A DNA stretch of 64,000 bases from Capsulimonas corticalis (GTDB lineage Bacteria; Armatimonadota; Armatimonadia; Armatimonadales; Capsulimonadaceae), in the NCBI RefSeq assembly GCF_003574315.2, contig NZ_AP025739.1, positions 1,240,001 through 1,304,000 of the forward strand, written 5' to 3'. Positions within the stretch are counted from its first letter, which is position 1. Each line of letters opens with the position of its first letter. The notes under the pieces are model-generated. The model was not told the DNA's origin. It saw only the letters and a list, made by a program, of their open reading frames with translations, and did not search any database. Position numbers and translations under genes: made by a program. Positions 38,358 through 59,450 of the stretch are shown piece after piece.

Positions 38358-38412
38358 CGTAAACGTTTACGGTAATTGCAATAATTATACAGGAAAGCCG
38401 CTGTCCTGTCAA
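38358..38412 (-). promoter_or_regulatory. nagB promoter with LacI-type operator
   Basis: Reading on the minus strand: TTGACA (38407-38412), 17-base spacer, TATAAT (38384-38389), and 12 bases downstream the perfect palindrome CGTAAACGTTTACG (38358-38371). The operator would overlap the transcription start region, as expected for repression. Confidence 0.85.
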
Positions 38413-38453
38413 TGCCCTTCGAATCCGCCGCCGAGTGCGTCTGGGAGGAGACC

Positions 38454-40451
38454 TCAGCGCGCCCCCGCCGTCAGCCCCGGCCAGTCGTCCGTGCGGAACG
38501 GCAGGGCGGGCAGTCCCGCGCCGTTGACGAGGCTGCACACCGGATTATCCGCCCAGGCGTAGCGCACGGCGGCCGGATGAGAAATCTCCGGCGACGAAAC
38601 GATCACGCTCGTTCCCTCGATCCGCGCCGACGCGCGCACGAACTTGCGGTCAGCGCCGGCGATGGTGAACCCGGTCAGCGGTCCGTTATCCTTCGCGGCC
38701 AGCCCTGCGCTGTGCGTGAACGTCAGCCGCGCCGCGCCATTCACGACGTTCATCGCGCGAAACTGCGGGCCGGACGCTTCGATTGTCTCGCCGTAGACCT
38801 GAGACCGCGCGAGCAGCGCCAGGCGCCGGCCGACCTCCTGCTTGTTCTTCGGATGCAGGTCGCCGCCGATATCGGCGGCGGTCATCAGGCCGATGTTCTT
38901 CCCATGCGTCGCCGTCATCGCCTGCGCCTCGCGCAGCTCGGCCCATTTGGAGTCGGCGGGACCATCCAGCGGCGCTCCATATCCCGCAAGCTGCACGATC
39001 AGGAACGGAAAGTCTCCTTCCCCCCAGCGCCTGCGCCAGTCGCGGATCATGGCGGGCAGCAGCGCCCGGTACTGATAAGCCTGATCGACATTCGACTCGC
39101 CCTGATACCAGAGGACGCCCTTGATCGGCAGCGGCAGCATCGGGTGAACGATCCCGTTGAACAGCACCGAGGGGTAATTCGCGTTGCTTTCGATGTCCTG
39201 CGGAAGCGGCGGCGTCCCCGCCAGCGGCGCGCCGATCCGGTAGCGCCAGGGGCCGGCGAGCGAGATCTCCCGTCCATCCCCGACCGTCACGCCAAAGCCC
39301 TGAGTCGACGCCGTCAATCCGCCGGGGCCGGCGGTGTCGAGCACGCGCACCGTGACGACATTACGCCCCTCGCGCAGCGCGGAGGCGGGAACCGTGTACG
39401 CGCGGTCCGGCGCAAATCCGAATGTGGAGCCGACAGGCGCGCCGTTCACCCAGGCGGTGTCGTCGTCATCCGCCTTAAACCGCAGCACCGCGTCTTTCTT
39501 CTCGGCGCCGGCGGGCAGATCGAACTCGCGACGCAGCCAGAGCACGCCGTCAAACGCGCTCAGCTCCGCAACGCCCGAACCTTCCCACACTCCCGGTTCG
39601 GCGATGGCTCCCCAGGCCGAAGCGTCCGTCGCCTCGGCTTCCCAGTGGCCGGCCGTACCGGGATCGTTCTTTGCGCACCATTCCTCGAAGCGCTGGTGAA
39701 TATCTCGTGACAGGCCGCGCCGCTGATCGTCCCGCGCGGCGTCCAGCTCATCCAGCGCCGGACGGTAATCGGGAACGTCGCGCCGCAGGGCCGCTTCACT
39801 GGTCCAGGCCTGCGCGGGCGTGCCGCTCCAGGCCGCGTCGATCAGGCCGATGGGCACATGGACATCCCGCCGCAAATCGCGCGCGAAGAAGTACCCGGCC
39901 GCCGAGAAACCATTCCAGTAGCCGCCGCTTTGGATCGCCTCCGGCGTGCAGACCGCCCATTGCCCGGCCATGGCGTCGCGCGGGGCGAGCGACAGCTTCC
40001 GATCCACCGTGCAAAGACGGATCTGCGGGTCATTCGCGGCGGCAATCTCCGCCTCGGCGTTGTCGACATTGCCGACGCCCATCTCCATATTGGACTGTCC
40101 CGAGCAGATCCAGACATCGCCCACCAGCACATCCTGAAGAATCTGCGTCTGAGGTCCCGAGACGATCACCGTATACGGTCCGCCCGCCGGCAGCGCCTCG
40201 AAACTCGCCCGCCACGCGCCCTTCGCGTCCGCCGTCGCCTCGGCCACATGCGCGCCCAGACGCAGCGTGACCTTGCGGCCGGGATCGGTCCAGCCCCAGA
40301 ACGGCGCAGGAACGCCGCGCTGGATCACCATATGATCGCGCAGCAGCGGCGCCAGAAACGGATGCTCCCCCGGATCGGACGCCGCCGATCCACGGGCGCC
40401 CAGCAACAGCGCGGCAAAGAAAACAGCCGCCGAGAATGGAATCTTATTCAC
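38454..40451 (-). CDS. Sialate O-acetylesterase-like SGNH protein with inserted beta-sandwich
   Basis: 665 residues with a GTG start and signal peptide (IPFSAAVFFAALLLGARGSA). The SGNH esterase is split: the first block (VWICSGQSNMEMGVGNVDNA, catalytic Ser in GQSNM) is near residue 118, and the second block (GVLWYQGESN, then DLHPKNKQEVGRRLALLA with the Asp-x2-His pair) is near residues 440-530. Between them lies a jelly-roll insert (GVLWLRREFDLPAGAEKKDA). Such proteins remove O-acetyl groups from sialic acids or other sugars. The start overlaps the end of the GH151-like gene by eight bases, so the two are coupled and belong to one operon. Confidence 0.9.
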   Translation of the reverse strand: MNKIPFSAAVFFAALLLGARGSAASDPGEHPFLAPLLRDHMVIQRGVPAPFWGWTDPGRKVTLRLGAHVAEATADAKGAWRASFEALPAGGPYTVIVSGPQTQILQDVLVGDVWICSGQSNMEMGVGNVDNAEAEIAAANDPQIRLCTVDRKLSLAPRDAMAGQWAVCTPEAIQSGGYWNGFSAAGYFFARDLRRDVHVPIGLIDAAWSGTPAQAWTSEAALRRDVPDYRPALDELDAARDDQRRGLSRDIHQRFEEWCAKNDPGTAGHWEAEATDASAWGAIAEPGVWEGSGVAELSAFDGVLWLRREFDLPAGAEKKDAVLRFKADDDDTAWVNGAPVGSTFGFAPDRAYTVPASALREGRNVVTVRVLDTAGPGGLTASTQGFGVTVGDGREISLAGPWRYRIGAPLAGTPPLPQDIESNANYPSVLFNGIVHPMLPLPIKGVLWYQGESNVDQAYQYRALLPAMIRDWRRRWGEGDFPFLIVQLAGYGAPLDGPADSKWAELREAQAMTATHGKNIGLMTAADIGGDLHPKNKQEVGRRLALLARSQVYGETIEASGPQFRAMNVVNGAARLTFTHSAGLAAKDNGPLTGFTIAGADRKFVRASARIEGTSVIVSSPEISHPAAVRYAWADNPVCSLVNGAGLPALPFRTDDWPGLTAGAR

Positions 40452-42483
40452 TCAGCTCCACCATTTGATGACATAGCACTTTGGGCACGGTGAACGTCAC
40501 ACCGCCGCCCGCCGTCTCTTCGATTTCCAGCGTCTCACCAGTGGGGGCGAGGCGCGCGGACCGGATCTTGACGCGCGGAATATTCACGCGGCAGCGCACA
40601 TCGTAAAGCGGCGTCAGGTCTTCAATGACCTCGACGGGCTTGGCGTCCTCGCCTTCGGCGGCGCCGCGCAGAACCGGCGTCGCGAAGAGCAGATGCAGCA
40701 CATAGCGCTCTTCCTCGGGCTGAACCATCAGGGACAGCCTTGCCGTCGACGGCAGGATCGCTTCAGCGATGGGATCGGAAATGAGCGTCCGGATGGCGTC
40801 CACGACGAAGTCGCGGTAGACCGGCTGGCCGTAGCGGCGATACCGCGTGAAGATATCGTGCGCGAAGTAGACCGCCTCGCCGTCGCCGACAGCGCCGGGA
40901 TACGGCCCGACGCCGTTGTCCGGCGTATGGAAATGGCTGCAAAAGTGATCGAAGGCGCGGTTGAAGTACGGCTCCGCGCGCAGCGCTAAGACTTGCAGTC
41001 CGGAATCCAGCTCCGGAACGACATCCCACGCGCCGCCGTGGATCACCAGCGGGCCACGCGCCGGCGATGTCGGGAGGGCGGCGGTCGGAATCAGATAATC
41101 GGGGTTCCAGGGGCTGCGGCCGGCCACCGTCAGGCGGTCCGCAAGCCCCGTCCATACAGCAAAACCCGTCTGGTCCGGCGTCAGACCGCTGCGTCCGCTG
41201 AGCAGCAGCTTGCCGCCGGCGCCGACAAACGCCTCCAGCCGGCGCGCGAACGCCTGGTGCGCAGCGTTTTCACCGGAAAGCACGATCTCGTCGGGCAGAA
41301 TGACCAGTTTGTACGGCGCCAGGTCCCGGTCCAGATCGATGACATCGAACAGCAGATGCGCCTCCAGCAGCATCCGCGCGGCGCCCTCCTCAGCGTGCGC
41401 GTGATCCCAGGCGCCGCGCGCCTGGTCCGTGCGCAGCGCTTCCGGCGAGACGAGCGCGATTTCGGAGACGGCGCGCGCGCCGCTCACCCACGGTTCTTTG
41501 GTTTCCACCTCGGTGTAGGCGGCACCGACAAGGCGATAGGTGTCCGGATTCATCTCCCCACTGGGATGCAGCTGATCGCCGATGCTGCACTTGGCGCCGA
41601 ACGCGAGCATCGCGGCGCATTCATAGCGGAGGGCGTCGGCGCGCTTGAAGCCGCCAAACTCGCCCCAGGTGGTGTGGAACTTGCCCGTCATCCCCAGAAA
41701 ATCATAGCCCGTAGTCGCGGCGTACTTCGCCGAAATGGGGAAGTGATCGTACCCCCACCCGCCCGTCGGCAGCGATTCCAGCTCCAGGTGCGAATTCCAC
41801 TGGATCGCCGCCTTGCCGCCTTTGGGGATATGGCCGCTGTTGTGAAAGACGCGATGGTTGGGATCCTTGCTGCGGGCGGCCGCCGTCGTGCGCGCATAGT
41901 AGTTCTGAAGCACGCGCGCCGCATATTCCTCCGCTTGCGCATCGTCCAGCGGGTTGACGCCCTCGGCGAGCATTCCCTTCATGCACCACGAGCAGTAACA
42001 TCGGCGCGCGCCGATGATGTCCAGAAAGATCCCGTCGCCATCGAACTTCTCCACCACTTCTTCGATCTGCGCGCACAGATAATCCAGATACGGCGTGTTG
42101 AAGCAGAGCATTTTGAAGCCCGGCGAGAGAGGCTCAAAAACCCGGCCGTCGCGGTCCTTGTAACCCCAGTCGGGATGCGCGAAGATCGACGCTTCGTCGA
42201 GACCGGCGGAGATGTAGATCGGCGTGCGAACATCGATCTCGCGGCAGGCGTCGAGTTGCGCGGGCAGCAGGTCCTCGGCCATGCCGGGATGGCGCACGCC
42301 GACATTCGTCTCGTGATAGCTCATCCCATGATGGCACTTGGCGAAGAGCGTGACGGAATCGACATGCCCCTCCCGCAGCATTTCCTGAAACCGCGCCCGC
42401 TCAAAGCGCGCGCCGACGCCGGCGATCTTTTCGCTCGTATGAAAGTCCAGATGGATCTGCCGAAACCGCAGTTCTTCCGTCAT
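40444..42483 (-). CDS. GH151-like / GH42-related protein, candidate alpha-L-fucosidase
   Basis: 679 residues, no signal peptide, so cytoplasmic. The start (RFRQIHLDFHTSEKIAGVGA) and layout fit the GH151 alpha-L-fucosidase type as I recall it: TIM barrel (about 1-370), a beta-galactosidase-trimerisation/class-I-amidotransferase-like domain (about 375-570, LVILPDEIVLSGENAAHQAF, GGKLLLSGRSG), and a small C-terminal beta domain. DGIFLDIIGARRCYCSWCM contains a Cys-rich loop. The family could instead be an uncharacterised GH42-like clade. It lies beside three GH29 fucosidases. An operator lies 44 bases upstream. Confidence 0.75.
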   Translation of the reverse strand: MTEELRFRQIHLDFHTSEKIAGVGARFERARFQEMLREGHVDSVTLFAKCHHGMSYHETNVGVRHPGMAEDLLPAQLDACREIDVRTPIYISAGLDEASIFAHPDWGYKDRDGRVFEPLSPGFKMLCFNTPYLDYLCAQIEEVVEKFDGDGIFLDIIGARRCYCSWCMKGMLAEGVNPLDDAQAEEYAARVLQNYYARTTAAARSKDPNHRVFHNSGHIPKGGKAAIQWNSHLELESLPTGGWGYDHFPISAKYAATTGYDFLGMTGKFHTTWGEFGGFKRADALRYECAAMLAFGAKCSIGDQLHPSGEMNPDTYRLVGAAYTEVETKEPWVSGARAVSEIALVSPEALRTDQARGAWDHAHAEEGAARMLLEAHLLFDVIDLDRDLAPYKLVILPDEIVLSGENAAHQAFARRLEAFVGAGGKLLLSGRSGLTPDQTGFAVWTGLADRLTVAGRSPWNPDYLIPTAALPTSPARGPLVIHGGAWDVVPELDSGLQVLALRAEPYFNRAFDHFCSHFHTPDNGVGPYPGAVGDGEAVYFAHDIFTRYRRYGQPVYRDFVVDAIRTLISDPIAEAILPSTARLSLMVQPEEERYVLHLLFATPVLRGAAEGEDAKPVEVIEDLTPLYDVRCRVNIPRVKIRSARLAPTGETLEIEETAGGGVTFTVPKVLCHQMVELSE

Positions 42484-42526: not shown

Positions 42527-42540
42527 CGTAAACGTTTACG
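42527..42540. promoter_or_regulatory. LacI-type operator upstream of the GH151-like gene
   Basis: Perfect 14-bp palindrome CGTAAACGTTTACG, ending 43 bases before the GH151-like start codon. I see no convincing -35/-10 pair close by on the minus strand, so it may act as a roadblock to read-through or with a weak promoter. Confidence 0.8.
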
Positions 42541-42617: not shown

Positions 42618-43907
42618 TCACGCCGTCTTCTCCGCTTTGGGCGTCGACGAATTCTTCCGGATCTCCGCGAACAACCGCTTGAATGTGTCCACGGTGTTTT
42701 TCGTGTTGTCCGTGGGCTGAAATCCCGGCTTGGCGTAGTAGGTGTCGATAAAGTCCTGCGCGTTCATCCAGGTCGTGGCGAAGACTCCGGGCATGCGCGA
42801 GGAGATCGTCGGCGAGAAGAACGCGCGCGACGCGTTCTTGCGCACCAGATAAACTTGCTCCAGTTGGCCCAGCGCGGCGCCGGCGTTATAGCAGGAGCTT
42901 GGGAGCACATCGAACCCCTTCACGGCGAAGTAGGAAGGCGTCGGCGGCGCGTCCTCATACTTCCAGTCGCAGATCATGATATCCTTCGGAATTTGATCGA
43001 TGGCCCGGTGCGTGTTGTTGCGGCTCGCCTGCCAGGCGAACAGTCCGGTCTTATTGGCGTCGATCAGACGGTCGCTCCACATCCACATCCGGCATTTTTT
43101 GGACGCCAGGCGCGTGTGCAGACGCGTGACGTACTCCGCGAAGACTTCGGCGGGGTCGCTTCCGCCACAGCGCGGGCACTGTGGATGCGCCACGATCCAG
43201 GCTTCGTCCAGCCCCACATGGAAGGCGCTGGCCCCGCAGGCGTCGATCAGCTCATCCATCATCGGGCCGATGATCGGGAAGAGGTCCGGATGGCGCGGGC
43301 ACAGACATTTGGAGTAAAAATCGAACTCGCCGCCGCTACGCCAGGGATTGGGCGGATTGAGATCGGGCGACTCATCGAGCTGCGGATACTTCGCCAGCAG
43401 CGGACCGATTTCGATCTGCTCCGATTGGTGCGCGAGCAGGTTCATCTCCGGAATCAGCGTCACCCCGGCCTCCCGGCACGCCGCCGCGATCGTTCGGACA
43501 TCGGCCAGGGAAAGCAGCTTCTTCCCCGGCAGATCCGGCTGGCTTACGAACCGGCACCGGTAGTCGAACATCACGACCAGCGTGTTGACGCCCTCTTTCG
43601 GCAGCGCGTCGCGCACAAAGGCGCAAAACGCGGCCACATCCTGCGGAAACGGCGAATAAAGCGAAAGCGCCCGGATCGGCAATTCATTCCACGGCTCCGC
43701 CGGCGGCGACTTGGCCGCCTCTTCTTTTTTCGCCATCAGCGCCGCCGCACGGGGGCGGATCGGCAGCCGCGCGGGCTCCGCACCCGGCGCCGCTTCGGCC
43801 CGCGCCTCCAGCGGCAAAGCGCCGTCCCCGCCGGCGCGCCCGATTCCCGCGGCGACCAGGAGACCGGCGGCGCGCTGGAGGAAGCCGCGACGATTGACTG
43901 AAAACAT
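42618..43907 (-). CDS. GH20-like (beta-N-acetylhexosaminidase-type) protein with Tat signal
   Basis: 429 residues. The N terminus has a twin-arginine signal (NRRGFLQRAAGLLVAAGIGR), implying export after folding. The TIM barrel core (LPIRALSLYSPFPQDVAAFC, GVTLIPEMNLLAHQSEQ) and the Asp-Glu pair in FHVGLDEAW match the GH20 active site (usual HxGxDE). A Cys pair, CPRCGG, just after it may bind metal. Probably cleaves terminal GlcNAc or GalNAc residues; the family is inferred from the motif. It is highly similar to the gene at 62823, which lacks the signal. It shares an operon with the GH29 gene 10 bases upstream. Confidence 0.8.
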   Translation of the reverse strand: MFSVNRRGFLQRAAGLLVAAGIGRAGGDGALPLEARAEAAPGAEPARLPIRPRAAALMAKKEEAAKSPPAEPWNELPIRALSLYSPFPQDVAAFCAFVRDALPKEGVNTLVVMFDYRCRFVSQPDLPGKKLLSLADVRTIAAACREAGVTLIPEMNLLAHQSEQIEIGPLLAKYPQLDESPDLNPPNPWRSGGEFDFYSKCLCPRHPDLFPIIGPMMDELIDACGASAFHVGLDEAWIVAHPQCPRCGGSDPAEVFAEYVTRLHTRLASKKCRMWMWSDRLIDANKTGLFAWQASRNNTHRAIDQIPKDIMICDWKYEDAPPTPSYFAVKGFDVLPSSCYNAGAALGQLEQVYLVRKNASRAFFSPTISSRMPGVFATTWMNAQDFIDTYYAKPGFQPTDNTKNTVDTFKRLFAEIRKNSSTPKAEKTA

Positions 43908-43917: not shown

Positions 43918-45186
43918 CTACTTCAAGAACAATTCGATGACCGGAACGGTGACGTTTGGTTTTTTGACCGGCAGGCGCAGGCTGATCTCATTGGATTTGA
44001 GATCATAGTGCGGCTCCCATTCGTTGCGGCCGTTCATCGTGACCTCTGAGCCGTCGTGGAGGAGCTGGGCGTAGGCGATCTTGCCGGCGATTCCGTCCAG
44101 GTGCAGCTCTTTGAAAGGCCATGCGTAAAGATGCACATACAGCCGATGGGTCTTTGGGTTGTACGTCAGGCGGCAGTCCTGCGGCGTGTCAAAACCTTCC
44201 GGCGCCTGCGTACAGCCGTAGATCGCGCGGGAATGCAGGCGCATCCAGGCGCCGATTCCCTTCAGCCGCTCCAACACGCGGGCGTCGAACTCGCCGCGCC
44301 CGGTGGGGCCGACATTGAGCAGCAAGTTTCCGCCCTTGCTGACGGCGTCGATGAGCATCTGGACGAGCATCTCGACGCTCTTCCAGTTTTCTTCGTCGCG
44401 ATGATACCCCCAGGAGCCGCTAAACGTCTGGCAGACCTCCCACACGACCGGGCGGCCGTTGTCCGTCACCCACTCGCGCGGCTGAAACTGCTCGGGGGTT
44501 TTGATATCCCAGCCGTGATCCAGATCGAGCCGGTTATTCAAAATGATCTGCGGCTGCAAGCGCCGGATCAGCCGCAGCAGATCCTCGCTGCGCCACTGCT
44601 CGGCGCTCATATTCTCGTAGCAGAAATCGTACCAGAGGATATCGATCTTGCCAAATTGGGTCAGCAGCTCACGCGTCTGCCCATGGAGATATTCGACATA
44701 ACGCGTCAGATCCCGATTCGACGTATCGATCTCACTCAGACGCTCGCGCATCGGATGGTAGGCGTCAACGGGGTAATCGGGATGACGCCAGTCCAGCAGC
44801 GAGTGGTAAAGACCGGCGCGCATCTCCTTCGCCCGAAACGCCTCCACCATCGGCCGCAGCAGGTCCTTGCCATAAGGCGTCCGCGTCGATTTGTAATCCG
44901 TAAGCGCCGAATCCCAGAGGCAAAAACCGTCATGATGCTTGGTGGTCACGACAAAGTACTTCATCCCCGCATTCGCGGCGGCCTCCGCCCAGCGGTTCGG
45001 ATCGTAGAGGTCCGGATCGAAGCGATCGAAATAGCGATCGTACTCGGCGTCGGACATCTTCTCATAGCTCTTCACCCACTCATGACGCGCGGGCATGGCG
45101 TAGAGGCCCCAGTGGATGAACATGCCGAAACGATCCTGGACGAACCACTCGGTGTCGCCTTCGGTTTTGAGAGGGTGTTGTGTCAT
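43918..45186 (-). CDS. Alpha-L-fucosidase, GH29, cytoplasmic
   Basis: 422 residues without signal peptide. GH29 hallmarks: RFGMFIHWGLYAMPARHEWV, YFVVTTKHHDGFCLWDS, KIDILWYDFCYEN with probable nucleophile D187, and LIDAVSKGGNLLLNVGPTGRG. It ends soon after the barrel with one small beta domain. It removes alpha-linked L-fucose from short oligosaccharides inside the cell. First gene of an operon with the GH20-like gene. No strong promoter was found upstream; a 51-bp inverted repeat with a degenerate operator-like half site lies there. Confidence 0.93.
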   Translation of the reverse strand: MTQHPLKTEGDTEWFVQDRFGMFIHWGLYAMPARHEWVKSYEKMSDAEYDRYFDRFDPDLYDPNRWAEAAANAGMKYFVVTTKHHDGFCLWDSALTDYKSTRTPYGKDLLRPMVEAFRAKEMRAGLYHSLLDWRHPDYPVDAYHPMRERLSEIDTSNRDLTRYVEYLHGQTRELLTQFGKIDILWYDFCYENMSAEQWRSEDLLRLIRRLQPQIILNNRLDLDHGWDIKTPEQFQPREWVTDNGRPVVWEVCQTFSGSWGYHRDEENWKSVEMLVQMLIDAVSKGGNLLLNVGPTGRGEFDARVLERLKGIGAWMRLHSRAIYGCTQAPEGFDTPQDCRLTYNPKTHRLYVHLYAWPFKELHLDGIAGKIAYAQLLHDGSEVTMNGRNEWEPHYDLKSNEISLRLPVKKPNVTVPVIELFLK

Positions 45187-47263: not shown

Positions 47264-47299
47264 CGTAAACGTTTCCGAAATTCGATATTTCCTATTATA
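47264..47299 (-). promoter_or_regulatory. -10 element and LacI-type operator of GH29 gene at 45440
   Basis: Minus-strand TATAAT (47294-47299), overlapping the end of the upstream GH29 region, and 16 bases further CGTAAACGTTTCCG (47264-47277), one base off the palindrome. The -35 region is poor. The operator ends 12 bases before the start codon. Confidence 0.65.
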
Positions 47300-49242: not shown

Positions 49243-49986
49243 TTAGCCGCCCTTGCTCGGGACCAGCCACGGCGTGTTGCCGTAATACCATTGCGCGGGA
49301 TGCGCCGATTTGACATGGCCGTCGGCGAACGCCGTGTTGACGAATCCGGTGTGGCGCGGCAGCGGCCCCGCCCAGTCGACGTTGTTGGGGTCGTGGGCGC
49401 AGGACGCGCAGCCTTCGTTATCGGCGACCGGATCTTGCAGGAACCATCCTTGCGGCTTGACCTTCGAGTTCTCCGAGACGGTGTTGTCCGCCGCGACGGT
49501 CGCGCCGCCGTCGCAGAAGTAAACCGTGCTCGCCGGGCTATTGAACTGCGCCAGCGTCGCCGGATGGTACGACGCCCAGTAAGGCGGCGAGATAAGCGAG
49601 TTGATCAAGTAGCTGACGTGGAACGGATCCACAAATCCAGCGGTGGGCCAGGCGCCAAACGAAGGCGGCTTCGTCCCACTGTCGTCGGGACAAGCGAACA
49701 CTTGCTGACTCTTCACGTAGGGATAGAAGACCTGCTCGTATTGCAGGTAATTTCCACTCGGCAGATAGTTGACGCAGTACGGGTAACTCTCGTCATTGTC
49801 CTGAACGTACTGAAGAATCGCCAGATTGATCTGCTTAAGGTTGGAGACGCAACTGATCTGACGGGCCTTTTCACGGGCTTTCGCAAAGACCGGGAAGAGT
49901 ATCGCGGCAAGAATCGCAATGATAGCGATAACAACGAGAAGCTCAATTAAGGTAAAGCCTTGATGAGAACGTTCGATGCGGTTCAT
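49243..49986 (-). CDS. Prepilin-type N-terminal domain protein (DUF1559)
   Basis: 247 residues. Leader MNRIERSHQ, then [33 protein letters not shown] and [13 protein letters not shown]. The C-terminal part carries the DUF1559 ending with [19 protein letters not shown] (the H-x-DGH region). Exported and processed by prepilin peptidase, then probably anchored or assembled in the envelope. The gap to the fucosidase at 49102 has only an 8-bp stem (49177-49184 with 49212-49219), a weak terminator. A variant palindromic operator lies at 50067-50082. Confidence 0.9.
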
Positions 49987-50066: not shown

Positions 50067-50140
50067 CCGCAAGCGCTTGCGGAGGTTCGCTCATGAGCTT
50101 CCCGTCCCATGGAAGAATGGGTGCGGGATGATTTATTATA
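50067..50140 (-). promoter_or_regulatory. Variant LacI-type operator and -10 element upstream of prepilin-like gene
   Basis: CCGCAAGCGCTTGCGG (50067-50082) is a perfect 16-bp palindrome with the same skeleton as CGTAAACGTTTACG, altered by symmetric transitions. A minus-strand TATAAT occurs at 50135-50140, 52 bases upstream of it, with a poor -35. The whole gap (49987-50263) has no other gene. Confidence 0.55.
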
Positions 50141-51091: not shown

Positions 51092-51147
51092 TTGACATCC
51101 ATCCCCGGTGAGGTTATAATGGCCGCATGAACCGTAAACGATTACGG
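51092..51147 (+). promoter_or_regulatory. GH2 promoter with operator inside the coding start
   Basis: TTGACA (51092-51097), 17-base spacer, TATAAT (51115-51120). The expected start of transcription coincides with the ATG at 51127. The palindrome CCGTAAACGATTACGG (51132-51147) begins 11 bases after the -10 and encodes codons 2-7. Confidence 0.85.
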
Positions 51148-54099
51148 GAACGGAATGCGTTCTCACTTTGCGTCTTTCTCGTCCCGCTTTGCGCCGCCGC
51201 AAGCCCCGCGCGCGCCAATGAGCTCTGGCCGCGCCCCACGATCGCGCCGATCCCCATTTCGGAGCCTGGCGTGCGTGCGCCGAAGGTCCTGCTGAATGGC
51301 GATTGGAAGTTCTCGGCGGCGCCGCCGAGCGACTTCTGGAACGCCGACGCTTCCGGCTGGGCGAACGCCGACGCTTCCGGCTGGGCGAACGCCGCCGTGC
51401 CGGGCGATCTCTCGGTGCAGGGGCTCATTGATGACCGGGCGACGAACGGCAAGGAGCTGGCGTATCGCAAAGTCGTGACGGTTCCGGCGGATTTCGCGGG
51501 CAGGAAGATCCTGCTGCGCATCGAAGGCGGATACGATTACGCGCGCATTTGGGTCAACGGCCGCTTCGTGCGCGACCACTATGGCGCGTTCACGACCTGG
51601 GATTCGGACATCACGCCCTATGTGACGCCGGGGCAGCCCGCGCGGATCACGGTCGGGCTGACGGCCGGCCCCGAGGAGACGCTGGGGATCGAGTACCGGC
51701 ACACGCGCGGCCTGGTGCGCGACGTCAGCCTGCTCGCCGCTCCCAAAGACCATCTGACGCGGCTTCAGTGCGACACGGATTTCGACGACGCCTATCAAAA
51801 CGCGACGCTGAAGGTCGATGCGGGGATGGAGTTCGGCGCGGCGCCGGGCGCGACCGTACGCCTCTCCCTCACCGATCCACGCGGCCGCAAGGTCACGATC
51901 GGACCGTCGAAGATCGTGCTGTCGCCCCGCGCGCCCGAACAATCGATCCGTATTCCCACCACGTCGCCCCAAAAGTGGGACTCGGAGCATCCCAATCTGT
52001 ATCGCCTGACGGCGCAGGTCAAGATCGATGGGCGCGTTGTGGAGACGATCACAAAATCCATCGGCTTCCGCAAGATCGCCTGGCGCGGAAACCAGATGTT
52101 CGTGAACGGACAGCCGGTCAAGCTGCATGGAGTCAACTGGCATCAGGACCTGGCGAACGCCGGCGAGATCGCGAACGCGGCGAACGACAAGGCGTCGCTG
52201 GACATGATCAAGAGCGCCAATGTCAACTTCATCCGGACATCGCACTACCCGCAAACCGAGTTCGTGCTCGATTACTGCGACAAGATCGGCCTGTATGTCG
52301 AGGAGGAGACCTCAATCTTCTTCATCACCGAACAGGGCGTGGCGATGAACTCGGAGAGCAACCCGGACTTCCAGCCCAAGTATATGAACCAGTTCGCGGA
52401 GATGATCGAGCGCGACCGCAGTCATCCGAGCATCGTGATGTGGTCCCTGGGCAACGAAAGCCGCTGGGGCTCGAATATGCAGCATCAGTTCGACTATGTG
52501 AAGCTCGAAGATCCCACACGTCCGACGATCTGGAGCTACCCGGACGATCACGACGCCGGGACGACCCCGCGCTTCGATATCCGCAGCATCCACTACCCCG
52601 GCCAGGGCTGGGCGTTCGGGCAGGCCGCGCAGCCCGAGTTGTGCGATGAGTACTCCCACATCCTCGTCACTTCCAGCGCCGCCGAGCTGCGCCGCGACGC
52701 CGGCGCGCGCGATTTCTACGGCGAAGAGTTAAAGTTCTGGTGGGAGAAGATGTACGCCGCCCCCGGCAACCTCGGCGGCGCTATCTGGTACGCGCAGGAT
52801 ACGACGTTCGCGCGCGCCGATGGGACCTTCAACCCCTCGCTCACCGCCGAATGGGGCGTCATCGATGTCTGGAACCGGCCCAAGCCCGAATACTGGAACG
52901 TCAAAAAAGAATATTCGCCCGTCGTGATCGACGGCAACGCCAAGTCCGTGGCGAACCCCGGCGCCGGAAAGCCGCTCGCGCTCCCCGTCCAGAACCGATA
53001 TAACCATTCGAACTTGAACGAAGTCACGTTCGCATGGAAAGCCGGCGACGGATCGGGCAAAATGCGCGGCCCGAATGTCGCCCCCGGCGGCCAGATCGGC
53101 GTGATTGAGATCCCGGCGCGGGACTGGAAGAACGGCGATATCGTCAATATCAAGGTCTTTCGGGACAAAGAATATGTTGATGAATACAACTTCACCCTCG
53201 GCATCCCCCACCCGATCTTCCCGGCGGCTCAGGGCCCCGCGCCTACGGTGACGACGGATGCGAAGACGATCCAAATCACCGGCCGCGACTTCTCACTGAG
53301 CTTCGACCAATCGACCGGATCGCTCACCCACGGCAAGTTTCGCGGCGCCGAGATCATTACCGGCGGTCCCTATCTAAACCTCGGCCTTCCGGAGCTGAAG
53401 CCGTGGACGCTGACCTCTCTGGACTCGCGGGTTTCGGGAGACCTGACCCACATCGATATCTCCGGAAAGTACGGCGACCTGCCGGTGCGCTTCGATGTTG
53501 CGGTGGACGCCGCCGGTCTCATCGCCACAACCTACACGATCGATGGAGCGCCGCCGGCCGAGGCGACGGAAGTCGGCGTCGCCTACACGGTCTCGCGCAA
53601 CGCCGACCGGCTGACCTATCGCCGCAGCGGAACGTGGTCGGCGTACCCCGCAGACTACATCGCCGGCAGCGAAGGCGTCTCCCTCAAGACAAAACCTCAC
53701 GGGGTCGATACCTGGCGGGTGAAACCATCGTGGCCGTGGGCGCTGGACGAAAAAGACTTCATCAACGACGGCGCCGCCAAAGCCTCCGCCGGCCGTGGAA
53801 CCAACGCCTTCCGAAGCTCCAAGACCAACGTCTACCACGCCTCCCTCGTCCTCGCCGGCTCAAACCTGCGATTACGGATGGAGGGCGACGGAACCGGCTC
53901 CGCGCACCCACTGATCGAACCCAACGGCGACATCCGGTTCAACATGAACAACCAGTGGTCGTTCAAGCTCTCCGGAGGCTCAATGGCGACGCAGATCCGG
54001 CGGGACGTGACGGCGGGAGCGGGATACACGAACACGGTGCGGATGCGGCTGACGGATGGGGATGATTATGGGATGGGGTATGAGGCGATTGTAAAGTAA
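51127..54099 (+). CDS. Secreted GH2 glycosidase
   Basis: 990 residues. Signal peptide: basic MNRKRLRER, hydrophobic SLCVFLVPLCAAA, cleavage near ASPARA. GH2 domains: jelly roll (residues about 50-200), immunoglobulin-like (about 215-325), TIM barrel (about 325-620). The acid/base is E444 in SLGNES and the nucleophile E508 in CDEYSH; NFIRTSHYPQ is the usual barrel motif. The C-terminal region resembles the large beta-galactosidase domains. Residues 72-87 contain an exact tandem duplication of eight codons. No better in-frame start exists downstream, supporting a leaderless mRNA. Likely removes beta-galactose, glucuronate or related sugars. Confidence 0.92.
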   Translation: MNRKRLRERNAFSLCVFLVPLCAAASPARANELWPRPTIAPIPISEPGVRAPKVLLNGDWKFSAAPPSDFWNADASGWANADASGWANAAVPGDLSVQGLIDDRATNGKELAYRKVVTVPADFAGRKILLRIEGGYDYARIWVNGRFVRDHYGAFTTWDSDITPYVTPGQPARITVGLTAGPEETLGIEYRHTRGLVRDVSLLAAPKDHLTRLQCDTDFDDAYQNATLKVDAGMEFGAAPGATVRLSLTDPRGRKVTIGPSKIVLSPRAPEQSIRIPTTSPQKWDSEHPNLYRLTAQVKIDGRVVETITKSIGFRKIAWRGNQMFVNGQPVKLHGVNWHQDLANAGEIANAANDKASLDMIKSANVNFIRTSHYPQTEFVLDYCDKIGLYVEEETSIFFITEQGVAMNSESNPDFQPKYMNQFAEMIERDRSHPSIVMWSLGNESRWGSNMQHQFDYVKLEDPTRPTIWSYPDDHDAGTTPRFDIRSIHYPGQGWAFGQAAQPELCDEYSHILVTSSAAELRRDAGARDFYGEELKFWWEKMYAAPGNLGGAIWYAQDTTFARADGTFNPSLTAEWGVIDVWNRPKPEYWNVKKEYSPVVIDGNAKSVANPGAGKPLALPVQNRYNHSNLNEVTFAWKAGDGSGKMRGPNVAPGGQIGVIEIPARDWKNGDIVNIKVFRDKEYVDEYNFTLGIPHPIFPAAQGPAPTVTTDAKTIQITGRDFSLSFDQSTGSLTHGKFRGAEIITGGPYLNLGLPELKPWTLTSLDSRVSGDLTHIDISGKYGDLPVRFDVAVDAAGLIATTYTIDGAPPAEATEVGVAYTVSRNADRLTYRRSGTWSAYPADYIAGSEGVSLKTKPHGVDTWRVKPSWPWALDEKDFINDGAAKASAGRGTNAFRSSKTNVYHASLVLAGSNLRLRMEGDGTGSAHPLIEPNGDIRFNMNNQWSFKLSGGSMATQIRRDVTAGAGYTNTVRMRLTDGDDYGMGYEAIVK
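51340..51387 (+). repeat. 24-bp exact tandem duplication in the GH2 gene
   Basis: Two back-to-back identical 24-bp units (51340-51363 and 51364-51387), adding the eight residues NADASGWA in frame, plus the first six bases of a third. Probably recent replication slippage. Confidence 0.9.
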
Positions 54100-54247: not shown

Positions 54248-54256
54248 GTTGGCGAA

Positions 54257-55264
54257 TTACACCGCCGCCGGCTGTTTCGCCTCGGCGGACTTGTAGGCGG
54301 CGAGGGCGATTTCTAAGGCGCGCAGGCCGTCTTCGCCGGTCGCGGTGTCGGGCGCCTCTTCGCCGGCGCTGAGCTTGAGGAAGCCGTCGACGAGCTCGCC
54401 GTCGAGGCTGCTGCCCCAGTTCGGCCAGAGAACGCGGCCGGCGGCGTCATCGTACTGCTCCAGTTGCTGGCCGAAGAGGTCCAGCTCGAACACGCCGCCA
54501 GTGCCGACGACTTGCAGCGTGACGTCGCCCCAGGTCGGGAAGGTTTTGGGGCGGGACCAGCTGGTGTCCAGGGTGGCGAAGACGCCGCCGTCATAGCTGA
54601 TCGTCAGGAAGCCGGTGTCATCGTATTCTTGGTGGTAGAAGCCATTGCCGATCTCGGCGTAGACTTCGGTCGCGTTCTTGCCCAGCAGCAGCCAGATCAG
54701 GTCGGCGACATGGACCGTGTGGTCGATCACCGCGCCGCCGCCGGAGAGGGGCAGGTCGATGAACCAGCCGCCGGGCATCGTGCCGCGGTTCGTGCCGCGA
54801 ATGGCGAGGATTTCGCCGACGGCGCCGGACTGGATCTGTTCGCGCAGGCGCTTGAAGGCGGGCGAGTGGCGGCAGGGAAACGCGGTCGCGAGCTTGACGT
54901 TGCGCGCGGCGCAGTAGTCGATCATGGCGCGGGCGTCTTCCACGGTCGTGGCGAGCGGCTTTTCGCTGACAACGGCCTTGACGCCGGAATCGGCGGCCAG
55001 CTCCACAAGGCGTCGATGGTGCGTGTTTTCACTCGCGACCACCACGCCGTCCAGCCCCAGCGCCAGCAGTTCGGCCTCGGAGGCGTAGAACGTGGTTCCA
55101 AACTGCTTGGCGCAGGCCTGGCCGCGTTCGGCGTCGGCGTCCCAGACGCCGGCCAGGGTGACGCCGGGGCGCTGCACGATCTCGCTGGCGTAGGAGCCGG
55201 CGTGTCCGTGGGCGAAGGAGAGAATACCGATCTTCAAATTCGTTTCGTTGCTCTGGGTCGTCAT
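54257..55264 (-). CDS. Gfo/Idh/MocA-family oxidoreductase
   Basis: 335 residues, cytoplasmic. N-terminal Rossmann fold (IGILSFAHGHAGSYASEIVQ) with DGVVVASENTHHRRLVELAA. The family signature Glu-Lys-Pro is in VVSEKPLATTVEDARAMIDY, the His-containing sheet domain follows (AVIDHTVHVADLIWLLLGKN). Such enzymes oxidise or reduce sugars and derivatives with NAD(P). The ATG overlaps the stop of the upstream paralogue (ATGATGA), so both are coupled and follow the GH18 gene. Sugar substrate unknown; processing of a released monosaccharide is likely from context. Confidence 0.93.
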   Translation of the reverse strand: MTTQSNETNLKIGILSFAHGHAGSYASEIVQRPGVTLAGVWDADAERGQACAKQFGTTFYASEAELLALGLDGVVVASENTHHRRLVELAADSGVKAVVSEKPLATTVEDARAMIDYCAARNVKLATAFPCRHSPAFKRLREQIQSGAVGEILAIRGTNRGTMPGGWFIDLPLSGGGAVIDHTVHVADLIWLLLGKNATEVYAEIGNGFYHQEYDDTGFLTISYDGGVFATLDTSWSRPKTFPTWGDVTLQVVGTGGVFELDLFGQQLEQYDDAAGRVLWPNWGSSLDGELVDGFLKLSAGEEAPDTATGEDGLRALEIALAAYKSAEAKQPAAV

Positions 55265-56256
55265 CAGAGGGTCACAGCCTTTCCAGTTTCAATCGACTCC
55301 AGCGCGGCCAGGGCGATGCGGGCCGCCTCCAGAGCGTCGTATACGGTCACCGGCGGCGTCACGCCGGCGCGAAGCGCCTGGACGAAGGCGTTCAGCTCCT
55401 TGTAATAAGGATCGTCGGTCACGAACATCGGGCTTTCCGGAACGGTCACTCCCGCGCCGGCGCCGTCCTTGCTGCGCAGGTTCGAGGAGAGCGAGACGCT
55501 CTTATTGGAATCGTGGGAGATCAGGCCCTTGTCGCCCGCCACTTCGTAAGTCGTCTGGAAGCCGCTCGGGTGCGCCCAGGATCCCGTCACATGACCGACC
55601 ACCCCGGATTCGAAGCGCAGGGTGACCAGGGCGTAGTCCAGACGCTCGTCGAAGCGGCCGGTTCCGAAGAGGCCCTTCGCCATGACGCGCGTCACGGGGC
55701 CGAAGGTCCAGCGCAGCCAGTCGAAGTCGTGCAGGATCATATCCAGGACGACGCCGCCGCTCTTTTCGGCGTTGGCGTACCAGTTCTCGCGGCCGGTGAT
55801 CGTCGGGAAGCCCGACATACGCGCCGTGCGCACGGTCGCCGGCTTGCCGACGCCGCCCTCATCCACGATTCGCTTGGCGGCGGCGTACTCGGGGAAGTAT
55901 CGCACCACGTGTCCGGCCATCGCCGGGACGCCCGCCTTTTCGACGGCCTTGATAATGGCTTCGCAGTCTTCAATACTGCGCGAAAGCGGCTTCTCCACGA
56001 AGATCGCCTTGCCCGCCGCCGCCGCCAGCTCCACATATTCGCGGTGGACGGGCGTCGGGGTGCAGATGTCGATGATGTCCGGTTTCGCCTTGGAGAGCAG
56101 CGTGTCCCAGTCGCTGAAGACGGGGCCATGCGCATGCGCCGCTTCCTGGCGCGGATCCAGAACGCCGACCAGTTCGGCGCCCTCGACATGCTTCCACTGG
56201 TTGGCGTGCCAGCCGCCCATATTGCCGGCGCCGATGAGCGCCACACGATAAGTCAT
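55264..56256 (-). CDS. Gfo/Idh/MocA-family oxidoreductase
   Basis: 330 residues. Rossmann start MTYRVALIGAGNMGGWHANQ; DIIDICTPTPVHREYVELAA; EKPLSRSIEDCEAIIKAVEK with the conserved Lys; AGHVVRYFPEYAAAKRIVDE; and LDMILHDFDWLRWTFGPVTR carrying the catalytic Asp/His pair. Inositol-dehydrogenase-like length and layout. It lies 42 bases downstream of GH18 and overlaps its paralogue, so the three genes form one operon under the GH18 promoter and its operators. Confidence 0.94.
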   Translation of the reverse strand: MTYRVALIGAGNMGGWHANQWKHVEGAELVGVLDPRQEAAHAHGPVFSDWDTLLSKAKPDIIDICTPTPVHREYVELAAAAGKAIFVEKPLSRSIEDCEAIIKAVEKAGVPAMAGHVVRYFPEYAAAKRIVDEGGVGKPATVRTARMSGFPTITGRENWYANAEKSGGVVLDMILHDFDWLRWTFGPVTRVMAKGLFGTGRFDERLDYALVTLRFESGVVGHVTGSWAHPSGFQTTYEVAGDKGLISHDSNKSVSLSSNLRSKDGAGAGVTVPESPMFVTDDPYYKELNAFVQALRAGVTPPVTVYDALEAARIALAALESIETGKAVTL

Positions 56257-56298: not shown

Positions 56299-57747
56299 TT
56301 AACGCACGGCCGTATCGCTGGCCGCCGGAAGCCCGCGAACGGCCCCGGCGATGGATCTGACCAGCGCCCCATCCCGGGTGTCCTGTCCCAGCTCCCAGAT
56401 CATGACGCCGCCCAGTCCCTGACCAAGCGCGAACAGCGCCTTTTGACGCACGGTCTCGGGACCGTTGAAGTGAAAGATGTCGGCGTCATCCACATTCGCC
56501 GCCAATGGCGTTTGTTTGTCGAGTTCACCATACGTCGGCGCTTCCCGATGATCCTGCATGGCGACTGCGGTTTCCGTGTAAAAAGGGATTCCCATGCAGA
56601 CTTTCCCAATGGGCGCGCCCTTGGAAACCAGCCCCAGCGCATCCGCCTGCGCGCCGGCCACCGGCGCGTGATGCGTATTGTCAAAGTACGTCATCAGGTT
56701 CAGCAGATCACAGGCGGCCAGCGCCTTCGGATCGATGGTGTCCCAGGTCGCCAGCGCCATGCTCAGGCGCAGTCCATGCGGCGCAAAAGCCTCTTTCGTT
56801 TCCAGAATCAGCGACTTCAGGCCCGCTTTTTCCTCGGGAGTATTCGGAAACTCCCAGTCATAATCAATCCCGTCAAATCCGTGCTTTTGGCAGAACAGAA
56901 CCAGATTCTGCGTGAACCGCTTCCGTTTTGCCGGATCGGTCGCCATCGCTGAGAACATGCCGGACCGGTCGCCGCCGCCAAACGCCGCTTCCAAGCGCGG
57001 ATGGTAACGCTGCTTGATCTCCTGAAGCTTCGCTTCCATCTCCGGAGTGAGACGCGAATCGTCGATACCGCCTTCGGGCGTCGGCGACAGGGAAAAGAAA
57101 ATGAGATCCGTGACGTACCGCGCCAGCTCGGGGTTGAGCGCCATGACCCGATATTCCGGCAGATACGCGACGATGTGAAAGTCCTTGCGCTTCCCCGGAG
57201 CCGCCCGCTTCACGGGATCGAGCAAAATGCGGCGCAGGTTCATGACAGCGCCGCCCGGCGCCGCCAGCGGCGTCACGCGCAGGGTCGTTTGCCCCGGAGT
57301 CAGCGTCACCGTCCCGTCCAGCGTCTGCGCCCGGAAATCCGTCCACGTCGGCCCCGTCTCCGCCACGACGCCCGAGACGCTCTGCCCCGGCTTCGGTCCC
57401 GCCGAAACGACGAACGGAGCCCCCGTACTGCCCGCGATACACGCGTACTCCATCACGATCCGATATTGTCCGGCGCTCGCCTTCGGAACACGGATGTCCC
57501 AGCGGACCGTGTCCTTGGGATCGGTCCACCACCCCACGTGCGGCTGGCCGTCTCCCATCTCCAAATGCGCCGTCTTGCCATCGATCGCCGCGGCGTCGGC
57601 CGTCAGATTGTAAATCCCCGCCACCGGAGAAATACGGCGCGTGACGGCGGTCGAATCCGCAAACGCTTCCGCCGCGACGCAAAGCGCGACGCCCAACGCA
57701 ATCAGCGCGAGAGCGCAAGAGAAATGGCGGCGTTTCATGAATATCAT
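56299..57747 (-). CDS. Secreted GH18 enzyme (chitinase or endo-beta-N-acetylglucosaminidase) with N-terminal beta-sandwich
   Basis: 482 residues; GAGG precedes the ATG at 57745-57747, with another ATG three codons on. Signal peptide to about residue 31. Residues about 42-180 are the beta-sandwich also found at the C termini of the two secreted GH29 enzymes (VGWWTDPKDTVRWDIRVPKA, GGAVMNLRRILLDP). Residues about 192-470 are the GH18 barrel: FDGIDYDWEFP gives the DxxDxDxE motif with catalytic E299. GGVMIWELGQDTRDG is the usual last strand. It cleaves beta-1,4 links next to GlcNAc, in chitin or in N-glycan cores. First gene of an operon with two oxidoreductases. Confidence 0.93.
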   Translation of the reverse strand: MIFMKRRHFSCALALIALGVALCVAAEAFADSTAVTRRISPVAGIYNLTADAAAIDGKTAHLEMGDGQPHVGWWTDPKDTVRWDIRVPKASAGQYRIVMEYACIAGSTGAPFVVSAGPKPGQSVSGVVAETGPTWTDFRAQTLDGTVTLTPGQTTLRVTPLAAPGGAVMNLRRILLDPVKRAAPGKRKDFHIVAYLPEYRVMALNPELARYVTDLIFFSLSPTPEGGIDDSRLTPEMEAKLQEIKQRYHPRLEAAFGGGDRSGMFSAMATDPAKRKRFTQNLVLFCQKHGFDGIDYDWEFPNTPEEKAGLKSLILETKEAFAPHGLRLSMALATWDTIDPKALAACDLLNLMTYFDNTHHAPVAGAQADALGLVSKGAPIGKVCMGIPFYTETAVAMQDHREAPTYGELDKQTPLAANVDDADIFHFNGPETVRQKALFALGQGLGGVMIWELGQDTRDGALVRSIAGAVRGLPAASDTAVR

Positions 57748-57840
57748 CGGAACCTCGTGTCTCGTCTGTCACTTCGGCTGAGAGATACAGGAAACGTCAC
57801 CGGAAACAAAATACGTAAACGTTTACGATTTCTGTTTTCG

Positions 57841-57869: not shown

Positions 57870-58147
57870 GAGGATTGGCGTAAAATCCTTCGCGAAAGTC
57901 CCGCGATGATTGCGGCCGAAAAGCAAGCGGCCGTCGTCTCGTCTTGAAACTCGCTTTCCGTAAACGATTACGGAGTCAAAATTAACGCTATTATACGACG
58001 AGAACGTATCCCTGTCAATGCGCAATTTGGCGGCGGGCGGCGCGGGTCTGAATTGGCGGGAAGAGATTCTTTTTGCTTGACACGCCATCCAGATCGTGAT
58101 ATCATCCCAGCATACCGTAATCGTTTACGAAAAGTTGCGATTGCCTA

Positions 58148-58176: not shown

Positions 58177-58278
58177 CATTTCCGAAGCTAACCGTAAACG
58201 ATTACGGAACCCTCCGGCGATGAAGCCCTTCCTTGAGTTACGCTCCGCACTCCCTGCGTCTTTATGAAGGAGAACACA

Positions 58279-59097
58279 ATGAACCATCGCCTCCGCCGAA
58301 CTTCTGCGTTCACTTTGATCGAATTGCTCGTTGTGATCGCCATCATTGCGATTCTCGCCGCGATTCTCTTCCCCGTCTTCGCCCAGGCCCGTGAAAAAGC
58401 GCGCCAGACGGCGTGCCTTTCCAATATGCGCCAGGTAGGATTAGGCGTGACACAGTACGTGCAGGACAATGACGAAGCCTACCCTCTGGTGACTTACTCC
58501 AACGACTCCCAAACACGGTTGATGAACGGAGTCGATCCTTATATCAAAAGCCAGGATGTTTGGTACTGTCCGAATTACTTCGGCGTGGGGGCGACCAAGG
58601 ATCCGAACGGTCATCCGGTTTATGAGAATTATGCAGGGACATGGTACGCCAACGCCGGAGATGCGTATCAGGGCAAGCCGCTCGCCGATGTCTGGGGTGG
58701 AAGCGGCAGCTGGTATACCGGGCATCGCCAGCCGGGCTACATGATCTTCATGGCGAAAGCGCCGTTTGGCGCCAATGGTTACATCAGCGATCCTTCGGCG
58801 CCTGCGCCGCTTGAGGGCTATTACTTAAGCCCACTTCATGCTTCCGATGAAGCGACCGATTACGGCAAAGGGCCGAATGGAGGAGGAGGCTACTGGTGGT
58901 CAACTGCCCCGTCAGAGCAGAATATTATCATGACGGACTGGTTTGGAACGTCGTGGCCCTATAGTTGGCTGATCCAGATGCACAACACCGGCGGCAAGAC
59001 GCCCGGCTACGGTACGCCGATCAAAGGCACGAATGCTTTGTTCATGGACGGTCACGTGAAGCTGACTCATCCATTCAACACATCCACCACCAACTGA
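58279..59097 (+). CDS. Prepilin-type N-terminal domain protein (DUF1559)
   Basis: 272 residues. The ATG at 58279 is chosen because AAGGAG lies six bases before it; an ATG at 58264 is in frame. Short basic leader [10 protein letters not shown], then [45 protein letters not shown]. The C-terminal part contains [17 protein letters not shown], the family's DGH motif. Many aromatic and Gly residues in the body ([14 protein letters not shown]) suit a surface-exposed binding or scaffold protein. Predicted processing by prepilin peptidase. Controlled by two operators of the glycosidase regulon, so its product is probably made with the glycan-degrading enzymes. Confidence 0.92.
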
Positions 59098-59141: not shown

Positions 59142-59160
59142 TGGAAATCACGAGAGCCCT

Positions 59161-59379
59161 ATGAATACCGTCAAAGAAAAAAAAGCGCTGTCTCCGGTCG
59201 TCATCATCAGCTCGCTCGTCGCCGCAATCGCTGTCCTGGGCCTGATTGTTTTCAAGTTCACTCAGACCCCCTCAGGAACTCCCCAGCAGATTACCGTCCC
59301 CGAGGAACTCAAGTTCCAGCGCGGCCAGCAGGCGCCGACAAGCGCGTCTCCGCGCCCGGCCCCCGCAGGCGTCAAATAA
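59161..59379 (+). CDS. Small single-pass membrane protein, hypothetical
   Basis: 72 residues: basic N terminus (MNTVKEKKALS), one membrane helix (VVIISSLVAAIAVLGLIVF), then a Pro/Gln-rich hydrophilic tail (PQQITVPEELKFQRGQQAPT). Orientation by the positive-inside rule puts the tail outside. It lies 63 bases after the prepilin-like gene and may be its partner, for instance in anchoring or assembly; this is context only. No family recognised. Confidence 0.65.
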   Translation: MNTVKEKKALSPVVIISSLVAAIAVLGLIVFKFTQTPSGTPQQITVPEELKFQRGQQAPTSASPRPAPAGVK

Positions 59380-59404
59380 ATTTTGGCGAAATGCTTCCCA
59401 GGAT

Positions 59405-59450
59405 TTGACAGACGGAATAAAAGACGTTATAATTCCGTAAACGCTTACGG
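59405..59450 (+). promoter_or_regulatory. Promoter and operator of the isomerase-dehydrogenase operon
   Basis: TTGACA (59405-59410), 17-base spacer, TATAAT (59428-59433), and the palindrome CCGTAAACGCTTACGG (59435-59450) starting one base after the -10. The start codon follows at 59463, leaving only a short leader. Confidence 0.88.

Follow-up and report, generated by a model that had tools for sequence, protein, structure and literature searches.

A CG-centred palindrome as putative operator of a LacI-family trio with glycan-degrading and DUF1559 pseudopilin targets in Capsulimonas corticalis

Which regulator reads the 14-bp palindrome CGTAAACGTTTACG that recurs before glycan-degrading genes of Capsulimonas corticalis, and are the prepilin-like genes that it also precedes genuine members of the same set? 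The question arose from a stretch of 64,000 nucleotides of contig NZ_AP025739.1 (hereafter the window, positions 1240001-1304000 of a 7.645-Mb genome), in which an earlier note had described ten copies of the palindrome as a local regulon read by the LacI-family protein encoded at 61564-62577. The reading favoured here, to which a probability of about three in four is assigned, is that CGTAAACGTTTACG is the operator of a trio of LacI repressors controlling approximately 20 glycan and pseudopilin units; from the sequence data, we infer the binding, the repression and the existence of an inducer.

All ten palindromes were recovered where the earlier note had placed them. A pattern search of the window gave three exact and six one-mismatch copies of CGTAAACGTTTACG (Table 1), and the tenth, CGCAAGCGCTTGCG at 50068, is perfectly palindromic and differs from the consensus by four transitions. 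At up to three mismatches, the window contains 12 matches against 1.30 expected and a maximum of 4 in 100 shuffles; the three-mismatch matches (3317, 51528, and 57658) all lie inside long open reading frames (ORFs). The statement that none occurs left of 38 kb holds at up to two mismatches and fails at three, due to the match at 3317. The flanks (10 kb before and 20 kb after the window) contain no match at up to two mismatches. The complete genome was scanned by mismatch-limited pattern searches with the reversed pattern as a control. At up to one mismatch, 23 sites were detected (4 exact and 19 with one mismatch) versus 3 for the control, and at up to two mismatches, 41 versus 22. The sites with exactly two mismatches (18 versus 19) are at background level, so the real set is essentially that with at most one mismatch, and the two-mismatch sites as a class were counted as background. 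Eight of these 18 lie within genes and three are found upstream of prepilins (1106413, 1645934, and 4890285); among the four scored for promoters, one was present at 4890285 and none at 1106413, 1645934, and 4780009.

Of the 23 sites, the window has nine, a second cluster (4.874-4.890 Mb) has five, and the remaining nine are placed singly, so that 14 fall outside the window and the regulon can no longer be called local. The outer CG pairs are invariant in all of them, and 22 are intergenic or at a gene start, with one inside a gene. A looser pattern, CGYAARCGYTTRCG, which includes the site at 50068, produced 12 matches versus 1 in the control; the form CGCAA...TTGCG is encountered twice among them, once per cluster (1290068, equal to window 50068, and 4889059).

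Without the intragenic site, the set defines 20 units. Those of the window begin with nagB, GHL6, glycoside hydrolase (GH) family GH29, GH2, GH18, prepilin, and isomerase genes, and the genes behind the ten palindromes are those named in the earlier note (Glucosamine_iso/nagB, GH151-like GHL6, GH29, a DUF1559 prepilin, GH2, GH18, another DUF1559 prepilin, and a TIM-barrel isomerase). The second cluster contributes a unit with a first gene lacking a Pfam match and a second gene encoding Spherulin4, two prepilins, and a second isomerase. The singly placed units are headed by genes for a beta-helix protein, three prepilins, a symporter-like protein (a weak sodium/solute symporter match of 30.7 bits versus a cut-off of 184), Spherulin4, GHL15, GH20, and GH18. 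A genome-wide scan of the kind proposed in the earlier note, with the downstream genes listed, thus revealed sites that are not spread evenly and that keep their link to sugar genes; none of the 20 first genes had the look of central metabolism. A DUF1559 prepilin is the first gene in 6 of the 20 units (binomial p from about 1e-5 to 2e-4 for 183-300 prepilins among an assumed 6600 genes), and operators precede prepilins away from both clusters (2408845, 2530057, and 6059572). The prepilin genes are not incidental to the operator set: they lead 6/20 units, and LacI-prepilin adjacency recurs in the relatives tested. The nagB, GH20, GH18, and Spherulin4 genes suggest an amino-sugar substrate, and the GH29 genes suggest fucose. 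Enzymes of the Spherulin-4/GH135 type have galactosaminogalactan as their substrate. For the oxidoreductases and the isomerase, only broad families were matched.

The position of the sites relative to promoters is consistent with repression. In 16 of the 23 cases, the operator lies 2-17 bp behind a promoter of the TTGACA-17-TATAAT type on the target's strand (both hexamers at least 5/6, spacer 17), and shuffling the same sequence 200 times never gave an equal score for these 16. At three more sites (47264, 2530057, and 6637562), TATAAT is perfect but no good -35 element goes with it. The divergent region 57738-58279 contains four operators, each with such a promoter, one pair directed at GH18 and the other at prepilin 2. 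Repression calls for this layout, in which the operator follows closely on a near-consensus promoter. At 50068, the weakest member, a promoter could not be recognised at the expected spacing. A repeat of chance or structural origin, without a regulatory role, would account for the background level of two-mismatch sites and for the missing excess in relatives given below, but it is highly improbable in view of the 23 sites versus 3, the promoter geometry, the clustering, and the sites before distant lacI homologs.

The candidate reader in the window, counted from its ATG (MNIVEFAK...), occupies 61564-62577 as the earlier note had it, and CG-centred palindromic operators are present in promoter regions near its gene. 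It matches PF00356 with 30.7 bits (cut-off 27) and PF13377 with 118.4 bits (cut-off 26.5). The genome encodes 56 LacI-type DNA-binding domains, a very large repertoire surpassed by the 104 of a relative in the same family (G025, 5.8 Mb). Two paralogs, at 4886407 and 4886699, are close to the window protein (73-76% and 62% identity), and the remaining LacI proteins reach about 31% at most (30.9% for 293287). Both close paralogs (4.8856-4.8877 Mb) sit within the second operator cluster, the only other one, and the trio shares the short N-terminus MNI[VI]EFAK...GTVSRALNDR. The window LacI is thus a likely reader, as had been supposed, given its paralogs in the other cluster and a similar motif before the genes of distant homologs; the candidates number three and not one. 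Its solved relatives include CcpA and PurR, the closest by sequence being 1rzr. CcpA cre sites are palindromes of the same general type as CGTAAACGTTTACG. A CcpA-type global regulator was rejected, with 108.7 bits on TIGR01481 against a cut-off of 442.35; unlike in the CcpA/cre system, the targets here are specific glycan units, and the score is far below the equivalog cut-off.

The accessible part of a published survey (PMC4052901) gives CG-centred palindromes for 1173 of 1303 LacI-family regulators and autoregulation as common in the family (72%). In common with the sugar regulons described there, the present system combines a helix-turn-helix with a periplasmic-binding-protein-like domain, has an even CG-centred palindrome upstream of carbohydrate genes, and appears likely to be autoregulated in the distant homologs. 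It differs from them in having three close paralogs at two loci with one shared operator, and many DUF1559 pseudopilin targets; words beginning with 'pilin' or 'armatimonad' are absent from the accessible text of that survey.

Orthologs of the window LacI with 52-64% identity were found in five relatives, four such loci being on named contigs of metagenome-assembled genomes (MAGs). On Capsulimonas sp. JAOQAA010000460.1 (L289), a prepilin, an isomerase, and a Gfo/Idh gene run in the direction opposite to lacI, an arrangement close to that of the window; the prepilin is preceded by a promoter and a one-mismatch operator, and a two-mismatch site lies further up. The Armatimonadota MAG contig JACMMA010000612.1 (L291) has the same order with one extra gene and one one-mismatch operator before the prepilin. 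The other two contigs (L288 and L290) showed neither a prepilin motif nor a site at up to one mismatch. Homologs with 35-40% identity were collected at 21 loci. The DNA-binding domain could be resolved at 17, of which 14 carry a site at up to two mismatches 17-46 bp before it (nine in genus g92 of family f19, one in f8, and four in f16). No close site was found at L278, L284, and L281, the last having a three-mismatch site at 151 bp. The loci L285 and L287, whose regulators have an SVSTVSYA helix, carry TCGAAACGTTTCGA instead, and L286 carries GAGAAACGTTTCGC; since a different palindrome accompanies the SVSTVSYA helix, helix and operator appear to change together. Of the 15 sites detected at up to one mismatch in relatives, 13 were retrieved, five of them with a prepilin nearby (L293, L298, L299, L303, and L304); L293 and L303 appear to be the operons of L291 and L289 again.

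Three genomes belonging to one order were scanned in full for the adjacency of LacI and prepilin genes, and 24 selected loci were added, prepilin places being taken from merged PF07596 and PF07963 lists. The C. corticalis genome contains at least 183 merged prepilin places. At least 25 of its 56 LacI genes have a prepilin within 1.5 kb versus 3.6 by rotation (the rotations included very small shifts; maximum 22), and at least 13/56 are directly followed by a same-strand prepilin versus 0.46 by rotation, with at least eight more pairs divergent. For TetR genes used as a control, 1/32 had a listed prepilin place within 1.5 kb (2.2 expected) and 0/32 were directly followed by one. The same order was observed for at least 48/104 LacI genes in G025 (0.87 expected) and for at least 5/10 in G008, a member of the same order (0.05 expected). 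The gap from the LacI stop to the pilin motif is 14-165 bp in G025 and G008 and 50-278 bp in C. corticalis. Among the 24 next-best homolog loci (L264-L287; families f2, f7, f8, f15, f16, f19, and f32, nine loci from one genus), a prepilin motif lies within about 1.5 kb in 23 and directly downstream in 18, the five loci with an unresolved LacI ORF being scored as misses; control 4-kb stretches of the C. corticalis genome contained a prepilin in 0/23 cases.

A CG-centred palindrome was also searched for before LacI genes. It precedes 10 of 24 resolved LacI genes in G025 and G008 (from 30 loci picked by Pfam score; 0.81 by shuffling, 1 in the coding control) and 10 of 37 resolved among 53 own loci (1.51 by shuffling, 1 in the coding control), an excess over the shuffles which makes autoregulated LacI-prepilin operons likely. 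Upstream of 178 prepilin starts, 35 CG-centred 16-mers with at least 7/8 pairs were located in 30 regions, versus 9-19 sites in five shuffles and 10 in coding sequence; several looser palindrome patterns upstream of prepilins gave no enrichment. This excess fits several operator types, e.g., AACCGGTT, and is too weak to pair each LacI with a site. A AACCGGTT-centred palindrome recurs before prepilins in L021, L126, L168, L191, and L222 and is possibly the operator of other LacI paralogs.

Several observations weigh against the assignment of CGTAAACGTTTACG to the LacI trio. The 22 relatives together have 15 sites at up to one mismatch versus 20 for the control pattern, and those with a 52-64% ortholog, several of which are incomplete genomes, have few (0 in G020, 1 each in G016, G017, and G023, and 3 in G021). 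The five orthologs have no site before their own genes, and the window LacI has none at up to three mismatches within 300 bp before its DNA-binding domain, where autoregulation would place one. A single genus accounts for nine of the 14 distant footprints. G025, which lacks a close ortholog, has five sites (control 4); two of these stand before LacI genes from other subfamilies, which shows that the motif is also found outside the clade. The standard promoter geometry is missing at 42527, 2592436, and 4884620, and 4882823 lies inside Spherulin4 coding sequence (L055:16594-17331), upstream of ABC-transporter genes, either by chance or as an intragenic operator. Finally, flanks of up to 1.5 kb around the window LacI and its five closest orthologs (L259-L263) contain no prepilin; the prepilin nearest to the window LacI is 4.3 kb off, and in the orthologs the prepilin, where seen, heads a neighbouring operon.

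A rival possibility is that CGTAAACGTTTACG is a generic operator of several of the 56 LacI paralogs, the 23 sites then forming overlapping regulons or a catabolite-type global network. In G025, LacI genes whose helices differ (SVATASRALS and SAATVSRVLN) have CGTAAACGTTTACG and CGCAAACGTTTACG immediately before them and a prepilin after them; CG-centred palindromes are typical of the LacI family (PMC4052901, accessible part); nine of the 23 sites are far from all three lacI genes; and relatives with close orthologs have few sites. We nevertheless regard a generic operator as rather unlikely, given that both clusters of sites are found where the three members of the LacI clade are encoded, that the targets are coherent (glycosidases, isomerases, and prepilins) with no first gene resembling central metabolism, and that the outer CG pairs are invariant. 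For the preferred reading, an operator of the LacI trio, the absence of enrichment in relatives makes the 20-unit regulon look like an expansion in the C. corticalis genome.

The pseudopilins are a core target: among the examined loci of Armatimonadota, the LacI and DUF1559 pair is recurrent, frequently arranged like an operon and with a palindrome in front. The two window prepilins match PF07596 with 41.6 bits (49243-49986) and 32.4 bits (58279-59097; cut-off 23.3), and both carry a type IV prepilin cleavage/methylation signal (PF07963 and TIGR02532 above cut-off). The C-terminal H-X9-DG domain (TIGR04294) exceeds its cut-off (19 bits) in the prepilins of L289 and L291 and reaches 17.1 bits in 49243-49986; it is not among the listed matches of 58279-59097, which keeps DGH near its end. 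Among 101 full-length own prepilins, 300 pairs drawn at random have a mean identity of 89% over the first 40 residues, a value favoured by the search pattern itself, and of 28% over the C-terminal parts (21% when shuffled). A profile of 50 prepilins (49 taken from 60 of 94 candidates, plus window 58309-59094) matched only the N-terminal pilin helices of solved structures, and an AlphaFold model based on three sequences was uninformative (mean predicted local distance difference test score, pLDDT, 35.3). Our best guess is that the pseudopilin is a substrate-matched surface or periplasmic filament or pseudopilus subunit for glycan capture or enzyme export.

According to the accessible parts of the respective papers, DUF1559 occurs as 68 paralogs of unknown function in a planctomycete (PMC10632474), as 74 genes assigned to solute-binding proteins in a planctomycete (PMC2754498), as a family exclusive to the Planctomycetes-Verrucomicrobia-Chlamydiae (PVC) superphylum (PMC4807772), and as one plasmid gene pair (PMC5352709). 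The DUF1559 body in very many paralogs is shared with the PF07596/DUF1559 family of Planctomycetes so described; unlike in the accounts that confine the family to Planctomycetes or the PVC group, the proteins here are abundant in Armatimonadota, have a prepilin N-terminus, and are paired with LacI regulators. Searches reaching few subscription papers found no literature joining DUF1559 with LacI, and none on prepilins and LacI in Armatimonadetes or Planctomycetes, LacI regulons in Armatimonadota having had no separate search. As far as the sources were accessible, queries for LacI with prepilin-type N-terminal cleavage or for pseudopilins with polysaccharide utilization returned other subjects only, and those on prepilins in Armatimonadota nothing on LacI.

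Two interpretations of the pairing stand side by side. We tentatively propose, at less than even odds, that LacI and DUF1559 form a phylum-wide cassette in which each LacI would switch its own pseudopilin, whose variable C-terminal part would recognise the matching glycan at the surface. It is equally conceivable, and likewise short of even odds, that prepilins are LacI-switched merely as members of sugar-use islands, the pseudopilin being a general surface or transport subunit with no sugar-specific role. The great abundance of prepilin genes, their nearly uniform N-termini, and prepilins adjoining GntR-like regulators (L047 and L056) are in line with a general subunit; a LacI-then-prepilin order far above chance in all three genomes, operators before prepilins outside both clusters, and strongly differing C-terminal parts speak against it. 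The GntR-like regulators, recognised by eye, adjoin DUF1559 prepilins at L056:8670-12035 (approximately 4.8927-4.8960 Mb, two near-copies) and at about 4556-5126 of L047, and the pairing of sugar regulators with prepilins may extend to other sugar-regulator families.

The features of the window are listed in Table 1. Genes were called using a simple codon-usage heuristic, so starts may be off and a few ORFs too short. The nagB-like gene scores 222.5 bits on NCBIfam TIGR00502, slightly below the cut-off of 236.9. The best solved relatives of the GH2 enzyme are beta-galactosidases, and those of the TIM-barrel isomerase include ulaE and D-tagatose 3-epimerase. An AraC-type regulator (50264-51085, plus strand; PF00165 and PF12833) lies between prepilin 1 and the GH2 gene, and an ORF of about 390 aa (62823-63992, plus strand), GH20-like by eye, adjoins the LacI gene and has no site at up to three mismatches before it.

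Table 1. Predicted genes and palindromic sites in the window (window coordinates).
Feature	Position	Strand	Remarks
nagB-like glucosamine-6-phosphate deaminase (target)	37516..38274	-	PF01182 83.3 bits on ORF 37516-38538
Operator, exact	38358..38371	.	Minus-strand TTGACA-17-TATAAT, 12 bp gap to site
SASA-type carbohydrate esterase, downstream of GHL6 gene	38454..40451	-	PF03629
GHL6 (GH151-like) glycosidase (target)	40444..42483	-	PF14871 96.9 bits
Operator, exact	42527..42540	.	No good upstream promoter found
GH20-like enzyme	42618..43907	-	PF00728
GH29 alpha-L-fucosidase	43918..45186	-	PF01120
GH29 alpha-L-fucosidase (target)	45440..47221 (gene caller's start)	-	PF01120 on ORF 45440-47251
Operator, 1 mismatch	47264..47277	.	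TATAAT 16 bp upstream, weak -35
GH29 alpha-L-fucosidase	47300..49102	-	PF01120 on ORF 47300-49168
DUF1559 prepilin 1 (possible target)	49243..49986	-	PF07596, PF07963
Variant palindrome CGCAAGCGCTTGCG	50068..50081	.	Precedes prepilin 1; weak site
GH2 enzyme (target)	51127..54099 (true start probably 3' of operator)	+	PF02836
Operator, 1 mismatch	51133..51146	.	TTGACA-17-TATAAT, 12 bp gap
Gfo/Idh/MocA oxidoreductase	54257..55264	-	PF01408 and related
Gfo/Idh/MocA oxidoreductase	55264..56256	-	PF01408 and related
GH18 enzyme (target)	56299..57738	-	PF00704 121.8 bits on ORF 56299-57747
Operator, exact	57814..57827	.	Minus-strand GH18 promoter, 13 bp gap
Operator, 1 mismatch	57959..57972	.	Second minus-strand promoter, 17 bp gap
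Operator, 1 mismatch	58116..58129	.	Plus-strand promoter 1 of prepilin 2, 10 bp gap
Operator, 1 mismatch	58193..58206	.	Plus-strand promoter 2 of prepilin 2, 16 bp gap
DUF1559 prepilin 2 (target)	58279..59097	+	PF07596, PF07963 on ORF 58264-59097; TIGR02532
Operator, 1 mismatch	59436..59449	.	TTGACA-17-TATAAT, 2 bp gap
TIM-barrel sugar isomerase/epimerase (target)	59463..60323	+	PF01261; paralog in second cluster
Gfo/Idh/MocA oxidoreductase	60345..61556	+	Paralog in second cluster
LacI-family regulator, candidate reader	61564..62577	-	PF00356, PF13377 on ORF 61564-62616

Under the proposed mechanism, a repressor dimer would, without its sugar inducer, cover the start region of the near-consensus sigma70 promoters and block them. 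A breakdown product would release it; the best candidates are oligosaccharides that contain an amino sugar or fucose and intermediates of the isomerase/dehydrogenase steps. Release would turn on the approximately 20 units, comprising GH2, GH18 (twice), GH20, GH29, GHL6, GHL15, Spherulin4, nagB, and two isomerase genes, together with the symporter-like gene, the beta-helix gene, a further Spherulin4-containing unit, and six DUF1559 pseudopilin genes. A concrete regulon is thereby defined, of three paralogous repressors, one operator, and about 20 units, and the tie to LacI offers a testable assignment of DUF1559 proteins as glycan-inducible pseudopilins. If the cassette reading is true, these bacteria would make dozens of glycan-specific capture or secretion filaments on demand, and a function would be found for a paralog family that ranks among the largest unexplained ones in environmental bacteria.

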